A DNA stretch of 27,732 nt from a virus, in IMG/VR virus record IMGVR_UViG_3300049845_000248, positions 1 to 27,732 of that record. The stretch is one strand, 5' to 3'. Shown in pieces: positions 5,731 to 27,732 of this stretch. A program made the translations under genes and the position numbers. The notes beneath the pieces are model-generated. The model did no database searches and was not told the origin of the DNA. It was given only the letters and a program-made list of their open reading frames with translations. Within the stretch, counting starts at the first letter, position 1, and every line of letters starts with the position of its first letter.

Positions 5731-5888
5731 GTAGACATGTAGACAGCCTGTAGACAGGGCTGTTGTCTACAACTTTCGTGCTCAGAATGACCGTTGTAGA
5801 CATGTAGACAGTACTTCTCTACCTATTAGGTATGGTAGTAAAAGAGGTAAATAGGGGAATCGGTGTCTACACCCGTCTACATGTCTAC
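5731..5888 (+). promoter_or_regulatory. Left nine-site GTAGAC control element (copy 1, plus orientation)
   Basis: Six-base GTAGAC sites start at 5731, 5739, 5750, 5796 and 5804. Reverse-complement GTCTAC sites start at 5765, 5865, 5875 and 5883. Between the two groups lies an AT-richer core with the palindrome TACCTATTAGGTA (5820-5832), TATGGTAG (5831-5838) and AAAAGAGGTAAATAGGGGA (5840-5858). An inverted homologue with the same site order is at 24898-25072. The element is between the nozzle gene and the next plus operon, so an operator-controlled promoter firing to the right is likely; TATGGT would be the -10. An iteron or partition-type site is the alternative. The binding protein is not known. 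Confidence 0.8.
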
Positions 5889-5927
5889 ATCCACCCCGCC
5901 ACACCGCGCGCAGGGCCGGTCTCCAAA

Positions 5928-5945
5928 ACACCCCGTGCAGGGTGT
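5928..5945 (+). repeat. Small hairpin in leader of the 5994 operon
   Basis: ACACCC and GGGTGT form a 6-bp stem with a 6-nt loop, between the nine-site element and the ribosome binding site of the next gene. There is no U tract, so it is not a convincing terminator. The rest of 5889-5993 shows only this structure and the GGAGGA site at 5982-5987. Confidence 0.4.
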
Positions 5946-5993
5946 ATGGTCATCCAGAAGACCGCGCATAGCCACCTATCCGGAGGACCGCAG

Positions 5994-6731
5994 ATGTCGC
6001 AGAAGTCAGACCTCTACAACGCGCTCAAGGCCAGCGGCCACCCACTGAGCACCACGTACGCCCTCTACACCGTCGACCAGCTGCAGGCGGAACTGGCCTT
6101 CTACCAGGTGCCGGTCGTCACCATCGAGGAGAAGCCGGAGCCGGAAGCTCCGGTGACGCCCGAGGAGCAGGCAGTCGCTGACCAGTACGCGAGGTTCGAC
6201 ACAGCACAGACTCCAGCCCCGGCGCCCCGCCCGCAGGATCCCGAGGAGATGCCGGGCCAGCGGCTGAATACCAAGGCCGAGGACGAGCCGATCCGGGTCG
6301 ATGAGCAGGGACGGCTCTGGTACCAGGAGGAAGTCCTCAAGCCTGCGTACCCGAAGCCTCGTGGCCGTCGCGTCCTGACCTACATGGACCGCGGTGTGGT
6401 CACCGAGACCGTCCAGAACGGCGAGTACATCGAGACGTTCGAGGTCGCCGGCAAGGGTGCAGGCAAGCCGGCCGAGGTGAAGATCACACTCCCCTCGTAC
6501 CAGGTCGGGATCTACAAGGACCCGCGCTTCCCGTTCCGGATCCACTGCTACAACGGCCGCGAGGGCTTCAACCTGTTCGAGGTGGCCGAGTACTTCGGAG
6601 GGACCGAGCTGGTCCCCGAGGAGTGCAAGCGGGTCTACATCGAGAACGACCTGTGCTACGACATCCGGACAGTGATCCGGGCCATCCAGACCGAGTACCG
6701 CCAGCTTCAACTGACAGGGAGAGTCAAGTGA
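5994..6731 (+). CDS. Hypothetical late protein (245 aa)
   Basis: The start is ATG 5994, with GGAGGA at 5982-5987. The reading frame is open back to 5832, but that extension crosses the repeat element and would be non-coding. Residues 1-40 look like a small helical domain (LYNALKASGHPLSTTYALYT). Residues 45-100 are a Pro/Glu/Ala-rich linker, and residues 105-245 form a beta-containing domain with several Tyr and two Cys. I recognise no family. It is the first gene after the control element, and its stop overlaps the next GTG start as GTGA. A capsid-assembly role is plausible from the scaffold-like protein two genes on, but this is inference. Confidence 0.8.
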   Translation: MSQKSDLYNALKASGHPLSTTYALYTVDQLQAELAFYQVPVVTIEEKPEPEAPVTPEEQAVADQYARFDTAQTPAPAPRPQDPEEMPGQRLNTKAEDEPIRVDEQGRLWYQEEVLKPAYPKPRGRRVLTYMDRGVVTETVQNGEYIETFEVAGKGAGKPAEVKITLPSYQVGIYKDPRFPFRIHCYNGREGFNLFEVAEYFGGTELVPEECKRVYIENDLCYDIRTVIRAIQTEYRQLQLTGRVK

Positions 6732-11742: not shown

Positions 11743-11940
11743 CTATCCCTTGTACCCGATGGCAGCCAACTGCTTGAGGGTCTTGTGGTTGGCCGTGCTC
11801 GTCGGCGAGAACGCCATCAGCACGACACCCTCGCGGTTCGGGTTCGTCACCTTCCAGTGACCCGAGCCGGTGCGCTCCACGATGAAGCCGGCGCTCTTGA
11901 GACGACGGACCAACTGCATCCGTTCGGATCGCCCGCTCAT
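11743..11940 (-). CDS. HicA-like RNA-binding toxin-family protein (65 aa)
   Basis: The protein is 65 residues with the HicA mRNA-interferase pattern: a first helix (MQLVRRLKSAGF), strand with ERTGSGHWKVTNP (His28 at the place of the catalytic His in the GSHH-type motif), then strands and a final helix (TANHKTLKQLAAIGY). HicA proteins fold like a double-stranded RNA-binding domain and cleave mRNA. No HicB antitoxin gene adjoins it: the neighbours are a zinc-ribbon mini-protein and a terminator. ATG 11938-11940 overlaps the upstream stop (ATGA). It may be a non-toxic RNA-binding protein or a phage toxin or regulator. Family call is from pattern only. Confidence 0.7.
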   Translation of the reverse strand: MSGRSERMQLVRRLKSAGFIVERTGSGHWKVTNPNREGVVLMAFSPTSTANHKTLKQLAAIGYKG

Positions 11941-12074
11941 GGTCGGATCTCCATGAGTCCGCAGCGTGAGCACCGGACCAGAGTCCATCCGGCACCACCG
12001 TAGCCACGGTCCACCCAGACATGCTGGCAGGCGGGACGCTTGAATCTGCTGAGGAACTTCCTGATCCCGTTCAC
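11937..12074 (-). CDS. Zinc-ribbon-like mini-protein (45 aa)
   Basis: GTG 12074 overlaps the previous stop as GTGA and the gene ends inside the next ATG (ATGA), so it is locked into the operon at both ends. The 45 residues are basic at the start (GIRKFLSRFKRP) and then carry C-x-H (ACQHVW) and, 17 residues later, C-x2-C (VRCSRCGLMEIRP), a plausible single zinc site. Such ribbons bind nucleic acid or protein. The longer upstream extension of this reading frame lies over the neighbouring gene and is rejected. Function is unknown. Confidence 0.65.
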   Translation of the reverse strand: MNGIRKFLSRFKRPACQHVWVDRGYGGAGWTLVRCSRCGLMEIRP

Positions 12075-12190
12075 CAGGACACCTCGGTGAGCACCTTCTC
12101 CAGCCGCTGCACACCCTGCTGGTCGATGTGGCCTGAGTCGAGCAGCTGCCACACGACAGCACGGATCCTCTCAACCTCAGCCGCGGCCAT
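12071..12190 (-). CDS. Mini-protein downstream of primase-polymerase (39 aa)
   Basis: ATG 12190 shares a base with the stop of the primase-polymerase gene (TGATG), and the gene ends with TGA at 12073-12071 overlapping the GTG start of the next gene. The product is 39 residues, one amphipathic helical hairpin (MAAAEVERIRAVVWQLLDSG then DQQGVQRLEKVLTEV). No family was recognised. It is supported by the perfect head-to-tail coupling on both sides. Confidence 0.6.
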   Translation of the reverse strand: MAAAEVERIRAVVWQLLDSGHIDQQGVQRLEKVLTEVSW

Positions 12191-13038
12191 CAGTTGTACC
12201 GCCTCACGTTGGACACCAGCTTGTCGGCCTCGTCCTTGTCCAGTCCGACGGCCATCGCCCTGGCGTGCAGATGCGTGTCCCAGTCGGGGACCTGCGCCAG
12301 CTTGAGCTGCTGCCCGATGGCGAACAGCGTGTTGTTCCGACGACCTGCGGGGATCGGCTTCTTCAGGTCGATCAGCAACTGGTCCTGCATGACTACCACC
12401 TCCAGTGGATCTTCTGCCTCGATCGTCTTCACGATCGCTGCGGTCTGAGCAGCGGCTGTCTGCCGGTGCTTGATGAGCCTGTCCTTCAGGTGCAGCGGGA
12501 GCTCGGCGATGTGCCGGTGGTTCCAGCGCTGGGACGGGTAGTGGTAGACACAGCCCGTCGCCCTGAAGTCCACGCCCTGTTCGATTCCGATGCGGTCTGC
12601 GAACTCGGCGAACCCGAGCTCGTCATCCCACTCGTCCTCGGACGTGGTGTAGAACAGGTGGTACCCGTCGCCACTCTTGCTGGTCTCGGCCAGCGTGAGC
12701 GGCAGCATGCCGAGCTTGCCGGCGTGCAGGTTGCCACCGTTCTTCCCGTCGATGTCGATGCATACGACCTTCATCGAACGCATGACGAACGCGAAGGCGT
12801 GCAGCCCCTTGTCGTACCCAGCCAGGACCGGGCTCATGCTGAACGCCCGGCGGTTGTACCGCTTCATGAACGCGGGCTTGCCGTCCTTGGACTGCAGGCC
12901 CCACCCGGGATCGGTCGTCCCGTCCTTCCAGGTACGCACGAGTGCGATGCCCTGCGGGCCAGCGTGAGGCTCGAGCTGTCCGACTGGGACAGCCATCTGC
13001 TCGTCGTACGTGTCAGTTGTCCACCACGGTTGTGGCAT
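12190..13038 (-). CDS. Primase-polymerase (PrimPol, bifunctional DNA primase/polymerase domain)
   Basis: This enzyme makes primers for phage DNA replication and may also polymerise DNA. It has 282 residues. The archaeo-eukaryotic-primase-type core is seen as VVCIDIDG (Asp95 and Asp97, metal ligands), SKSGDGYHLFY (His127 in the sxH motif) and GVDFRATGCVYHYPS (about 155-169, third acidic position). Residues 195-282 form a helical extension with no helicase, because the SF3 helicase is a separate gene directly upstream. AAGGAGGAAGCAG precedes ATG 13038, which overlaps the helicase gene by 26 bases. The family call is strong from the three motifs and the partner gene. Confidence 0.88.
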   Translation of the reverse strand: MPQPWWTTDTYDEQMAVPVGQLEPHAGPQGIALVRTWKDGTTDPGWGLQSKDGKPAFMKRYNRRAFSMSPVLAGYDKGLHAFAFVMRSMKVVCIDIDGKNGGNLHAGKLGMLPLTLAETSKSGDGYHLFYTTSEDEWDDELGFAEFADRIGIEQGVDFRATGCVYHYPSQRWNHRHIAELPLHLKDRLIKHRQTAAAQTAAIVKTIEAEDPLEVVVMQDQLLIDLKKPIPAGRRNNTLFAIGQQLKLAQVPDWDTHLHARAMAVGLDKDEADKLVSNVRRYN

Positions 13039-24104: not shown

Positions 24105-24440
24105 TCAGCACATGTTGCTGAAGAAGGCGTTGAACGCCGTCTCGTTGATGGTGCCTGAGCTGCCGTCATCGAATGCCTCGAAGGCAGCCTCGGTGTCCAT
24201 CCAGTAGAAGTTGCACATGGACTCCTGCTCGTCGGCGTCGTAGTTGTCCCAGATGCCAACGAGCAGGGAGACCTGAGCCTCCTCGCTCTGGGTCAGATCG
24301 GGGTACTCGTCGGTGGGCTCCGGCTCCTGTGCAGGAGCGGTGACCGTCACGACAGGAGCAGGCTCCGGATCGGACGGGACGGTGCAGCCGGCCAGGACGA
24401 GCAGGGCAACGGCAGCGACGATGGTCTTGCGCTTGAACAT
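24105..24440 (-). CDS. Secreted lipoprotein (111 aa)
   Basis: ATG 24440 follows GAAGGGAAG. Residues 1-18 are a signal peptide: MFKRK, hydrophobic VAAVALLVLAG, then the lipobox LAGC with lipidated Cys19. A Pro/Glu/Thr-rich linker (20-50) leads to an acidic domain with two further Cys (76-111, MCNFYW and SNMC). After export it would be anchored to the outer face of the host membrane. Phage lipoproteins made early often block superinfection by DNA of related phages. That role is inferred from location and timing; no family was recognised. Confidence 0.85.
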   Translation of the reverse strand: MFKRKTIVAAVALLVLAGCTVPSDPEPAPVVTVTAPAQEPEPTDEYPDLTQSEEAQVSLLVGIWDNYDADEQESMCNFYWMDTEAAFEAFDDGSSGTINETAFNAFFSNMC

Positions 24441-24464
24441 GGTTCTTCCCTTCGGGTTGGTTGG

Positions 24465-24692
24465 TCAGTGCTGGTGCTTGAGGTACCAGGAGATCGCGCA
24501 GACACGTTCGTCGTGCGGTGAGTGAGGTGACGGCAGTGGGCAGGCAATGGACGGTGGAGCATCCGTCCACGGCTTGGCAGATGGCGCATTCTTCCGCACG
24601 CTTCTGCGGTAGAGGAAGTCACGGACCTCGACGATGGCATATGGAATGCCAACACCGAGGATGACTCCAAGACTGAATGAGAACATATCCAT
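24465..24692 (-). CDS. Small membrane protein, first gene of the early operon (75 aa)
   Basis: ATG 24692 is chosen because GAGGAG lies seven bases before it; the frame also has an ATG at 24707 without a better site. Residues 1-25 (MDMFSFSLGVILGVGIPYAI) form one membrane segment. A basic stretch (RDFLYRRSVRKN) follows, then a Pro/Ser/His-rich cytoplasmic tail with two Cys. It precedes the lipoprotein gene by 24 bases, so two membrane-targeted proteins are the first products of the operon. The AT-rich stretch before it (24690-24735) is the 3' end of the structured leader. Confidence 0.7.
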   Translation of the reverse strand: MDMFSFSLGVILGVGIPYAIVEVRDFLYRRSVRKNAPSAKPWTDAPPSIACPLPSPHSPHDERVCAISWYLKHQH

Positions 24693-24740
24693 TCTTTTAC
24701 TCCTCAATCTTTGATTGAACTCTTTCTTTCTCCCTATATC

Positions 24741-24827
24741 ACAACAGTCTCTTCCTGTTGTAGCGACGCATCGCTACACCCGACGCATCGGGTAGGAAGC
24801 CGCAGCTTCAGGTGCCACGCCTGGCAC
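24741..24827 (-). promoter_or_regulatory. Phased hairpin array in the early-operon leader
   Basis: Four hairpins lie side by side on either strand: 24759-24778 (TGTAGCGA/TCGCTACA), 24778-24793 (ACCCGA/TCGGGT), 24796-24809 (GAAGC/GCTTC) and 24812-24827 (GTGCCA/TGGCAC). Their four-base loops are CGCA, CGCA, CGCA and CGCC (TGCG and GGCG on the minus strand), with centres at 24768.5, 24785.5, 24802.5 and 24819.5, exactly 17 apart. A fifth dyad (ACAACAG/CTGTTGT, 24741-24761, 7-nt loop) continues the row. The array lies about 50-135 bases upstream of the first early gene, so it would be in the leader RNA of a transcript from the element at 24898-25072. Loops are conserved while stems differ but still pair, which points to a folded RNA or ssDNA. 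Confidence 0.8.
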
Positions 24828-24897
24828 GAGGTGGAGGAGGAACGACAGAGAGAGTGGTAACTGTGAGTGAGAGTGTTGTTGCTGAGAGTCCTGAAGT

Positions 24898-25072
24898 GTA
24901 GACACGTAGACAGGTGTAGACACCGGATCCCCTATTTACCTCTTTTCTCTCTCTCCCCTCTTCTACCATATATATATAAGGTGAAGAAGTACTGTCTACA
25001 TGTCTACAAGGGTAGAGATGAGCACAAAATCTGTAGACATGAGGGGTGTCTACATCGTGTCTACATGTCTAC
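24898..25072 (-). promoter_or_regulatory. Right nine-site GTAGAC control element (copy 2, inverted)
   Basis: Sites on the plus strand: GTAGAC starts at 24898, 24906, 24916 and 25033; GTCTAC at 24994, 25002, 25048, 25059 and 25067. Read on the minus strand, order, orientation and spacings (8, 11, 15, 31, 8, then core, then 10, 8) equal those of copy 1. A 25-base stretch (24985-25009) is identical to 5794-5818 reversed, and a 19-base core block (24928-24946) to 5840-5858. The central core is 17 bases longer here and contains an alternating TA run (24969-24977). A promoter for the early operon, firing leftward and controlled by the repeats, is the best reading. Confidence 0.8.
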
Positions 25073-25156
25073 ACACCCACGCAAGCGCGCATGGCGCTGC
25101 ACATCAACCTGCCTGCACAGTCTGAATCGAACAGATGTTCGGTAGAAGAATGTGAA

Positions 25157-25324
25157 TCTTTCACGCCATTCCAAAAGTAAATACGTACACATGACTCGTC
25201 AGTGGATGCCGGCCGCTCGGTAGCCCGAGACGCAAACGTCACGCGACTAGACGAGTTGGAGTTGTTCTAGTCGAATCAAGTCGTCAACATGTGTACGTAA
25301 TGAAAAAGGAATGGCTGTGAAAGA
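25157..25324. repeat. Large imperfect inverted repeat enclosing three hairpins
   Basis: The outer arms are 25157-25193 and 25288-25324. They include a perfect 12-bp match (TACGTACACATG, 25182-25193, with CATGTGTACGTA, 25288-25299) and a 16-17 base match with one bulge at the ends (25157-25172 with 25308-25324). Inside are CTCGG-TAGC-CCGAG (25216-25229), GACG-CAAA-CGTC (25229-25240) and CGACTAGA with TCTAGTCG (25244-25251, 25266-25273). It has no open reading frame of note. It could be a structured RNA, an origin with cruciform potential, or a remnant small mobile element. Confidence 0.7.
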
Positions 25325-25328
25325 AGAG

Positions 25329-25360
25329 AGAGCCCAAGACCTGTGAAGGTCTAGGACTCT
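25329..25360 (-). terminator. Probable terminator of the 96-aa gene
   Basis: Thirteen bases after the stop of the gene at 25373-25663, arms AGAG-CC-AGACCT and AGGTCT-GG-CTCT form an interrupted stem with a four-base loop. On the minus strand it is followed by the pyrimidine-rich CTCTTCTTTC. This would isolate the gene from the early operon. The T tract is broken, so efficiency is uncertain. Confidence 0.65.
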
Positions 25361-25372
25361 GTCTTCTTCTAG

Positions 25373-25663
25373 CTAGCGCTTGCCGAGCTTGACGATGCGG
25401 TTGGCCCAGGCGTCTTCGACTACTGCCTGCAGCTTGGACTGACGTGCCAGCTGTGCGTCCCGCTCGTCGGACTGTGGCTGCTTGAGCAGGGTAGTGATGC
25501 GATCGTGGAACGGATCGGTGACCTCAACGAGTGCCTCGGTTGCGGTCTTGAGTGTGGCAGTGCCCATGTCGTCCGTGATGGTGGTGACCATGGTGCGTTC
25601 GCCACTGGACTCGCTGAGCTTGTTGAGCACTGCTTGCTGTGTGATGTCCTGCATGAAACCCAT
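25373..25663 (-). CDS. Hypothetical protein, isolated gene in the non-coding region (96 aa)
   Basis: ATG 25663 is chosen because AAAGGA lies nine bases upstream; the frame is open further up through the repeat region, which is low complexity and non-coding. The 96 residues are mostly helical and mildly acidic (MQDITQQAVLNKLSESSGE; LLKQPQSDERDAQLARQ), with a basic end. No family or DNA-binding motif was recognised. It has its own upstream repeats, its own terminator, and lies next to a promoter-like AT-rich region, so it may be expressed alone and early. A regulator is possible but not supported by motif. Confidence 0.75.
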   Translation of the reverse strand: MGFMQDITQQAVLNKLSESSGERTMVTTITDDMGTATLKTATEALVEVTDPFHDRITTLLKQPQSDERDAQLARQSKLQAVVEDAWANRIVKLGKR

Positions 25664-25695
25664 GATGGGTGTTCCTTTCGGTAGGTGATGTGTGT

Positions 25696-25746
25696 GCGTG
25701 AGGTGTGACTGACTGCGTGAGGTGTGACTGTGTGACTGTGTGACTG
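25696..25746. repeat. TGTGACTG direct repeats upstream of the 96-aa gene
   Basis: GCGTGAGGTGTGACTG occurs at 25696-25711 and 25715-25730 (period 19), and the eight-base TGTGACTG at 25704, 25723, 25731 and 25739. They lie 33-83 bases upstream of ATG 25663, in its leader or promoter. Tandem 8-mers are operator-like; simple slippage is the alternative. Confidence 0.6.
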
Positions 25747-25749
25747 TTG

Positions 25750-25885
25750 TTGAATCCAAAATCAAAAATGAATCAAGAAAATCAAATGTTATAATCTAAT
25801 CAAATGTATATTATCCCTACTATATACATATATAATGTATAGGGGGTATAGTATGTTTCTTTTGTATTTATTGTATTTGTTGGAA
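25750..25885. promoter_or_regulatory. AT-rich region with TATAAT boxes and palindromes
   Basis: In a GC-rich genome this stretch is strongly AT-rich. It contains TATAAT at 25790-25795 and 25831-25836, AATCAAAT repeats (25780, 25798) and the palindrome TATACAT-ATATA-ATGTATA (25823-25841). It separates the minus-strand 96-aa gene from the plus-strand virion genes, so divergent promoters are likely. A DNA-unwinding region of an origin is also possible. No -35 box at good distance could be fixed. Confidence 0.5.
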
Positions 25886-25968
25886 CCTCTCACAAAAGTT
25901 TCCATTTTCACACCCTCCACCTACGTTCATCCCTCACAACCGTAGTCCAGAGCCCCCTGAAGCAGTCC

Positions 25969-26287: not shown

Positions 26288-27732
26288 GTGGCGGACTTCA
26301 CGAAGCCCAGCGAGCTCGGGCGTGCAGCGGACAACCCCGTCGCCCCTTCTGGACTGAGGCAGACGGCTGACCGGATGAAGACGGGTCAGGAGCGCTTCCT
26401 GGCCGGCGAGTCGAAGCTGGCGCCGTGGCTGCCGAAGGACAGCATGCTCGAGACTGCGTCCTCCTGGTACGGGGGCCAGAACACCGAGGGCGTGAAGAAC
26501 GGGTGGGACAGCAACTTCTACGCCACGATGTTCGCCCAGCGCGATGAGTGGGTGAACCGGGCTGCACAGGAGAACAACAACCAGCGCTTCTACGACTGGC
26601 TCAACCCGGAGAAGAACCCGACCGCCACCGGTGTCGTGGCCTGGGGTGCAGACCCCACGAAGACGGACAAGAACTACCAGGGCGATCGTTTCGGTGACGT
26701 CTACCAGAACGGCAAGAAGGTCGCCAACGTCTACGACGACTACGACATCCCCACCGCGGACACGCTCATGGGTGAGTACCTGTTCACCAACGACGAGAAG
26801 GAGCGCATGTTCCGCGACTCCGGGTCGCGTACGGAGACGGTCACCGAGAACGGCGAGACGCGGACGGTCAACATCCCCGGGTCGTGGGACCAGTACCGGG
26901 CGAAGGTCGAGGGGTACCGCCAGCAGAACACCGAGGCCAAGGAGTTCGGCGCCAGCGCCCAGTCGTTCCAGCGGGACACCGAGGCGCGGGAGCGCGCCAT
27001 CCATGAGGGCTGGGGCAACGAGGCGCTGATCGGTGGAGCTGCAGTCGCCACGGGCGCCACGGTGCTGGGGACGGCGGCGACGGCCGCGGCTGTTGCGGGC
27101 ACCGCGTTCTCCTGGACGGGTCCTGGCGCGCTGCTGGCCGCTGGTGGTGCTGCACTGGTCTCCGGCGTCGCGGCCTGGATGAACCAGGATCAGCTGGTCG
27201 AGCTCACTGCGCGGGCGCAGGAGGTCACCGACCGGAGCACCGGGTTCTGGCAGACCACGGGATCCGCGCTCGAGGGCATCGGCACGGTCGGCTCGAAGCT
27301 GGCGACACCGTTCTCCAACTCGGTGCAAGGCATCTACGAGGTGAGCAAGGGTCTCGACAAGGTCGGCGACCACACCTCCGAGTTCAACAAGGTGGTCGAC
27401 GGCGAGCGGCAGGCCCCGGGTTGGGTGCAGGGCGCTGACATCGCGGCGAGCCTCGCGGATGGGGTGCTGCAGTTCGCGTCCCCGACCGGGCGCTGGCTGT
27501 ACATGGGCACGATGGGCACCACGATCGCCGGCGATGTCGCAGGCATGACCAGTGGTGCAGGCTTCAACTACTCGCGCGGCCAGTTCGACAAGTACGAGAA
27601 CTGGAAGGAGTGGTCGGCTGCGATCGGCGGCACCACGATCGACGCGGTGCAGATGGGGATGGCGGGCGCCCTGGCCTCCGCAAGCCGCACGGCCCGCACG
27701 GCGGCGGGCATGGAGTCCAGCCGGGCGGCGAC
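26288..27732 (+). CDS. Large virion protein, N-terminal part (cut by window end)
   Basis: The frame is open from GTG 26288 (AAGAAGGG nine bases upstream) to the window edge, 481 codons, no stop. Residues 1-240 are polar and rich in Asp, Asn, Tyr and Trp (SSWYGGQNTEGVKNGWDSNF). Residues 247-298 are two adjacent hydrophobic, Gly/Ala-rich segments (GGAAVATGATVLGTAATAA; ALLAAGGAALVSGVAAWM), enough to cross a membrane. More Gly/Ala-rich stretches follow near 400-480. Large virion proteins with hydrophobic hairpins are typical of internal ejection proteins of short-tailed phages, or of tape measures in others. The likely role is genome delivery through the host envelope. Confidence 0.8.
   Translation, partial: MADFTKPSELGRAADNPVAPSGLRQTADRMKTGQERFLAGESKLAPWLPKDSMLETASSWYGGQNTEGVKNGWDSNFYATMFAQRDEWVNRAAQENNNQRFYDWLNPEKNPTATGVVAWGADPTKTDKNYQGDRFGDVYQNGKKVANVYDDYDIPTADTLMGEYLFTNDEKERMFRDSGSRTETVTENGETRTVNIPGSWDQYRAKVEGYRQQNTEAKEFGASAQSFQRDTEARERAIHEGWGNEALIGGAAVATGATVLGTAATAAAVAGTAFSWTGPGALLAAGGAALVSGVAAWMNQDQLVELTARAQEVTDRSTGFWQTTGSALEGIGTVGSKLATPFSNSVQGIYEVSKGLDKVGDHTSEFNKVVDGERQAPGWVQGADIAASLADGVLQFASPTGRWLYMGTMGTTIAGDVAGMTSGAGFNYSRGQFDKYENWKEWSAAIGGTTIDAVQMGMAGALASASRTARTAAGMESSRAA

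Follow-up and report, generated by a model that had tools for sequence, protein, structure and literature searches.

Why does the noncoding gap ahead of the early genes of an actinobacterial podophage carry a row of evenly spaced hairpins, and what might read them? The stretch of DNA analysed here (the window, 27,732 bases, covering the entire IMG/VR record) represents 27.7 kb of the ~54 kb genome of an actinobacterial podophage, whose relatives are Burrovirus and the Eekayvirinae. Its nearest isolates, all of ~54 kb, are the Microbacterium phages Burro and Araxxi (Burrovirus) and the Arthrobacter phage MissAmericana, with Eekayvirinae such as TinyTimothy and Akoni as more distant relatives; Burro and the phages of cluster EK are podoviruses (PMC7302621). 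Structural genes of the window lie on the + strand and replication genes (Prim-Pol, a DUF5906 protein, helicase, PolA, exonuclease and an AAA-ATPase) on the - strand. The genes that occupy Burro positions 25 and 26 are separated by a noncoding gap, ~670 nt long in the window and 800-1,000 nt in relatives; the hairpin array sits in this gap, on the coding side of the leftward early block. This gap and the gene beyond it contain the following features:

24465 to 24707, - strand: first gene past the array, 80 aa, Burro gp25 by position, heading the leftward early/replication block
24729 to 24741, - strand: start-like element TGATATAGGGAGA, at the position of T-run-GG and purine tract in most relatives, 25±1 nt past the last loop
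24741 to 24761, no strand assigned: terminal (fifth) dyad, ACAACAG-TCTCTTC-CTGTTGT, with a 7-nt loop, outside the 17-nt phase
24759 to 24778, + strand: hairpin 1, TGTAGCGA-CGCA-TCGCTACA, which comes last when read in the direction of the early operon and has the loop TGCG on the - strand
24778 to 24793, + strand: hairpin 2, ACCCGA-CGCA-TCGGGT
24796 to 24809, + strand: hairpin 3, GAAGC-CGCA-GCTTC
24812 to 24827, + strand: hairpin 4, GTGCCA-CGCC-TGGCAC
24896 to 25074, no strand assigned: copies of TGTAGACA pointing either way, resembling iterons or operators, on both sides of an AT-rich stretch
24960 to 24982, no strand assigned: the AT-rich stretch, TATATATATA, between two repeat clusters

The four tetraloop hairpins are exactly where the first-pass annotation placed them, with loop starts 17 nt apart. 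It had also proposed that a fifth dyad extends the row: the dyad at 24741-24761 is present, but its long loop is out of phase and it is only loosely attached, and a weak AT-rich dyad is frequent at this place in relatives. When the window's 600-nt leader was dinucleotide-shuffled 300 times, no shuffle attained the three-hairpin score of the real sequence at any of the phases 14-30. An exact-motif search of viral contigs with CGACGCATCG pairs returned one useful match, the near-identical contig L028, whose hairpin 3 reads GAAGA-AGCA-TCTTC, a compensated change relative to the window's GAAGC-CGCA-GCTTC; the other matches of that search that were scanned held no array. Rfam covariance models gave no meaningful match within 24400-25800, no description of the array was found in the literature searched, and the word "hairpin" is absent from the main text of the phage genome paper (PMC7302621).

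When homologous gaps are read on the early-operon strand, the same array is found in the same gap of about 25 relatives. Nearly all share one architecture, with three to five hairpins, loop starts 17 nt apart, loops of the form [T/G/A/C]GC[T/G] and stems unrelated in sequence, as in Burro (e.g. TCACGC-TGCT-GCGTGA and ACTGGC-TGCT-GCCAG), L010 (e.g. GGCTCA-TGCG-TGAGCC and TGGTTA-TGCG-TAACCA) and TinyTimothy (e.g. GGTCAT-GGCT-ATGACC and TAACAT-GGCT-ATGTTA). Phases from 14 to 30 were scanned in the 600-nt leaders of 20 lineages with dinucleotide shuffles as control: the summed score at phase 17 was 311, against 210.6±3.9 in shuffles (z = 25.7), every other phase scored between 226 and 243, and in 19 of the 20 related leaders no phase outscored 17. 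To follow pairing, two units from 20 phages were aligned without gaps (240 cells); 92.1% of cells pair (41.4±2.9 in shuffles) with a covariation score of 1.21 (0.214±0.034 in shuffles); sliding the partner by 1-3 columns lowers pairing to 28-42%. Stem pairs covary across all four Watson-Crick types, the GC loop core is invariant in canonical arrays, and most genomes use a single fourth loop base throughout, either G or T, as if a cognate protein coevolved with it. The array is real, phased, selected for structure and conserved across the phage group. The earlier view that selection acts on structure, rather than simple duplication having made the row, is borne out by stems that differ and covary around conserved loops; a check for loops that vary freely or stems that fail to compensate found neither, save for drifting loops in one side clade.

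The first-pass annotation took the row to be the 5' leader RNA of the early operon, transcribed leftward and bound repeatedly through its RNA hairpins by a protein, for antitermination, translation control, RNase shielding or sequestration. The array does lie directly upstream of the first early-block gene on the coding strand, it covaries strongly, and its loops (UGCG, GGCG, UGCU or GGCU if transcribed) are conserved and uniform inside most genomes. RNA hairpins are familiar from early phage leaders, where lambda boxB and HK022 put occur as one or two hairpins with no phasing; the array shares their location, but lacks the G·U wobble covariation expected of an RNA element of the boxB, put or translation-operator kind. 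The 240 cells show no one-sided (G·U) change, whereas terminator hairpins after gene 26 of the same genomes, used as an RNA control, have 32 G·U and 2 A·C beside 304 Watson-Crick pairs (32 G·U in 356). In a count made without filtering for pairing, 194 of the 200 inner pairs in the two units nearest the start are Watson-Crick and none is G·U; the difference from the terminators is significant by Fisher's test (p=4e-7), an optimistic value that treats related phages as independent, and it persists, with the same optimism, when the control is limited to the five loop-adjacent pairs (7/120 by hand count; p = 0.001). The third unit is less well paired and has 4 G·T in 100. One must consider that short stems may avoid G·U for RNA reasons too.

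The breaks in the stems speak to the strand. In 11 of 15 hairpins broken at pair 4, the sense strand carries TC facing TC, which on the + strand becomes a tandem 5'-GA/GA. Facing 5'-GA-3' steps stack as stable sheared pairs, so these mismatches, which destabilise the leader strand, point to the window + strand, the template for leftward synthesis. Folding under DNA parameters makes the hairpin row the best structure for most lineages; RNA parameters do so for fewer, and favour other structures in several. An exact linear phase is also hard to explain for a folded RNA. From the missing wobble, seen in terminators of the same genomes, and from a commonest double mismatch that fits only the opposite strand, we infer that the array acts as DNA rather than RNA, on the template strand; the leader-RNA interpretation has lost ground accordingly and now appears improbable.

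Two further explanations were weighed. The palindromic sites of the row could be recognised as duplex DNA by a repressor or activator that acts as a dimer, and the regular spacing just upstream of a start-like element would suit such an operator. Neighbouring sites, however, have no common stem sequence, stems change with compensation even among the close relatives Araxxi, Arete and Casino, and 17 bp does not correspond to an integral number of turns of the helix, all of which makes duplex recognition very unlikely. Alternatively, tandem duplication followed by template-switch correction of quasi-palindromes could have left perfect hairpins that serve no function. Template-switch repair makes perfect palindromes without wobble, and the absence of wobble is just what is seen here; but such a relic, which we consider more improbable still, leaves the invariant GC core, the uniform loop type of each genome, the fixed distance to a start element and the single conserved location per genome unexplained.

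That fixed distance leads to the adjoining sequence. When the sequences are aligned without gaps, with the last loop as sole anchor, T is conserved at +27 to +30 (1.4-1.7 bits at the best columns) and GG at +31/+32 (1.1-1.3 bits), followed by a purine-rich tract, while most of the ~20 nt between the last loop and the T-run-GG are little conserved. The spacing from last hairpin to T-run-GG is 24-26 nt (25±1) in most lineages, with the hairpin upstream on the early-operon strand, and a GC-loop hairpin with a start-like element at 24-25 nt occurs only at the array locus in the phage regions scanned. The window carries TATAGGGAGA where relatives have T-run-GG, and so departs from the consensus. 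A sigma-type -10 scan was also made: lineages with NGCT loops often have a -10-like hexamer at +21 to +25, those with NGCG loops a poor one, and a host promoter was therefore not taken up as a general rule; no common promoter in the other direction appeared in the scan.

Our preferred explanation, to which we assign a probability of about 0.4, is that the array may be a DNA-level initiation platform on the template strand, for early transcription or for origin priming. The four palindromes of 5-8 bp would fold into tetraloop hairpins in single-stranded or supercoil-extruded DNA, probably on the window + strand as template for leftward early synthesis; a phage-borne polymerase or loader would bind the GC loops, guided by the 17-nt phase and the ~25-nt distance, and leftward RNA would start near the T-run-GG (TATAGGGAGA in the window), serving expression of the early operon, priming at the adjacent repeat-rich region, or both. 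A start of synthesis at the array-linked element is suggested by its fixed offset across mostly unconserved sequence. Conservation of place and phase in ~20 lineages, covariation with no one-sided change beside terminators that do show G·U, the tandem GA/GA breaks, the hairpin row as best DNA fold and the uniform fourth loop base all favour such a platform; the off-consensus start element of the window counts against it. Among the readings offered at first pass, a single-stranded primase or polymerase site fits best.

A precedent exists in phage N4 (Schitoviridae), whose promoters are template-strand DNA hairpins in which stem bases that are not contacted are free if paired (PMC4496689). The likeness extends to short hairpins ahead of early genes, a template-strand location (which here is our reading of the mismatches), largely free stem letters with conserved loop bases, and a giant virion protein in a podovirus. 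The differences count against the platform: an N4 promoter consists of one hairpin, its stem 4-7 bp and its loop 3 nt long, about 11 nt away from the start (at about -11), whereas the array has three to five hairpins with 4-nt loops at a 17-nt phase, a row 28-80 nt upstream whose last member is ~25 nt from the start element, and its candidate polymerase is of a different class. That candidate is encoded beyond the gap:

26288 to 27732, + strand: giant virion-protein gene, 5' part, running off the window

Giant proteins of the relatives have been described as virion-associated and as unlike the N4 virion RNA polymerase (PMC7302621), and the giant protein has no match to the N4 gp50 family (T7-like, single-subunit) in PHROGs, Pfam or PDB. 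Full-length relatives, of ~4,430-4,490 residues, carry an RxP...DxDGD signature at ~830-876 (relatives with the signature include L098, L112 and L083), and the window ends before this motif. One invariant DxDGD with RxP ~40 residues upstream is present in five aligned full-length proteins, and both are kept in all further lineages whose giant protein reaches the region. As the catalytic signature of beta'-type RNA polymerases, the motif is suggestive of an RNA-polymerase-like protein. The giant-protein profile aligns with E. coli beta' 420-467, ending NADFDGD (hhalign P = 0.0057), and a PDB-wide profile search aligned the polymerases of phages AR9 (beta', E = 0.02) and PhiKZ (E = 0.41) at DxDGD, at scores that unrelated proteins reach similarly; these alignments speak for the initiation platform. 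No Pfam polymerase matched the giant protein, and AlphaFold (AF2) models of the region, at pLDDT 56 and 67.5, are of low or middling confidence, the better one having no PDB fold match and no polymerase fold, which weighs against the platform. The DxDxD catalytic motif of two-barrel virion polymerases such as P23-45 gp96 and crAss gp66 is present as sequence and may sit in a double-psi beta-barrel (DPBB).

The same kind of signature led to recognition of gp96 of phage P23-45 as a virion polymerase, the closest precedent for a polymerase fused to a tape measure, and P23-45 uses AT-rich linear promoters (PMC10770324). Here too there is a giant virion protein with RxP...DxDGD in its N-terminal region, but the reported P23-45 promoters come with no mention of hairpins, the podophage protein is a putative polymerase, and hhalign found no significant similarity between the two (P = 0.18). 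The P23-45 promoter thus also argues against a hairpin platform, and the present phages offer a rival for the role: most relatives have a highly conserved AT-rich block, GGAAACTTTTG..GAGAGGTTCC...ACTATACCCCCTATACATTATATATGTATA (window ~25800-25925 in - strand sense), upstream of gene 26, in the interval that separates this gene from the giant gene. This block is probably a divergent promoter, and as a candidate for the promoter of a virion polymerase it is no weaker than the array. An injected RNA polymerase that reads the array is only a lead.

The other candidate reader is a primase:

12190 to 13038, - strand: Prim-Pol, an archaeo-eukaryotic-type primase/polymerase and candidate hairpin reader

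If the hairpins were single-strand initiation sites at an origin, at which Prim-Pol, with the DUF5906 helicase-primase, laid the first primer, no early transcript need start there. The gap is origin-like, with bidirectional repeats around an AT-rich stretch and an adjoining block of replication genes, and the phage encodes Prim-Pol (Pfam PF09250), the DUF5906 protein, a helicase and PolA. Prim-Pol is a candidate reader because of these surroundings. Plasmid RSF1010 offers the parallel, since its RepB' primase, likewise archaeo-eukaryotic in type and acting on single-stranded DNA, recognises a DNA hairpin with a start trinucleotide nearby (PMC4434180). Its ssiA and ssiB sites are, unlike the array, single hairpins with specific flanks and no phased row; the start of ssiA is close by, whereas the array of three to five hairpins has its start-like element ~25 nt away, and no GTG-like start shows conservation. 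The iteron call for the repeats was made by eye, with no initiator identified, and a search of the literature on cruciforms and origins found nothing relevant. Pure origin priming is on balance unlikely.

The repeats themselves change between phages, relatives having others of different sequence where the window has its TGTAGACA sites. A second repeat cluster lies in the structural region, where 5840-5889 (-) matches the repeat block 24897-24946 at 92%, a copy that lies ahead of the ORF 5832-6731 or inside it. A further element of the gap, CTAGTCGCGTGACGYTTGCGYTCRGGNTACYGAGCGRCCGGC (25208-25251 in - strand sense), is deeply conserved in the same gap of nearly all relatives and is structured: its upper hairpin covaries, its lower stem tolerates G·U, and a large internal loop lies on one side only; in the window it is flanked by a 12-bp inverted repeat (25182-25193/25288-25299), and it has no Rfam match. 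Elsewhere, a small ORF at 11743-12174 (-) matches a PHROGs toxin family weakly, with a HicA-like C-terminal part, and C2H2 zinc-finger matches, which are uncommon in phages, were obtained for Burro gp23 (L012:11805-12839), a 'DNA binding protein' encoded a short way downstream of the array region.

Going one step further than the initiation platform, one may tentatively propose a class of promoter or origin, doubtful as yet, at which a phased row of template-strand hairpins would position either a phage primase or a giant two-barrel RNA polymerase delivered by the virion; the enzyme would read the row by shape and a two-letter loop core. If true, a whole subfamily of actinobacterial podophages would use a DNA-structure code, where very few systems are known to use DNA hairpins to signal initiation (N4 promoters and RSF1010 primase sites). 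The phased row is conserved over ~20 divergent lineages that include the isolated phages Burro, Araxxi, TinyTimothy and Akoni, and its role is testable at once; the array also raises the question of whether the ~4,400-residue virion protein, which has had no explanation since 2020, could be an RNA polymerase that is injected.

The exceptions fall in a side clade (L043, L045, L111, L114 and L116) whose loops have drifted or whose array cannot be recognised. L045 shows GACTA-CGCA-TAGTC and AGGTCA-CACA-TGACCT, while L111 keeps the 17-nt phase with loops read by eye as TGCT, CGTC, (A)CGCT(C) and CGCT. No row of GC-core (NGCK) hairpins is present in the homologous gap of L043. DxDGD is found in L043, and probably in L114 and L116, with no recognisable GC-loop array, so the canonical array does not accompany every DxDGD phage, a point against the initiation platform. 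L046 has two TGCG hairpins 17 nt apart with TTTGG 26 nt further on. In L100, ACGG and TGCA loops stand at the 17-nt phase in a different place, and side lineages whose loops leave the GC core (L111, L045, L043 and L100, with loops such as CGTC, CACA and ACTA) are useful for tracing how the loop code changes.
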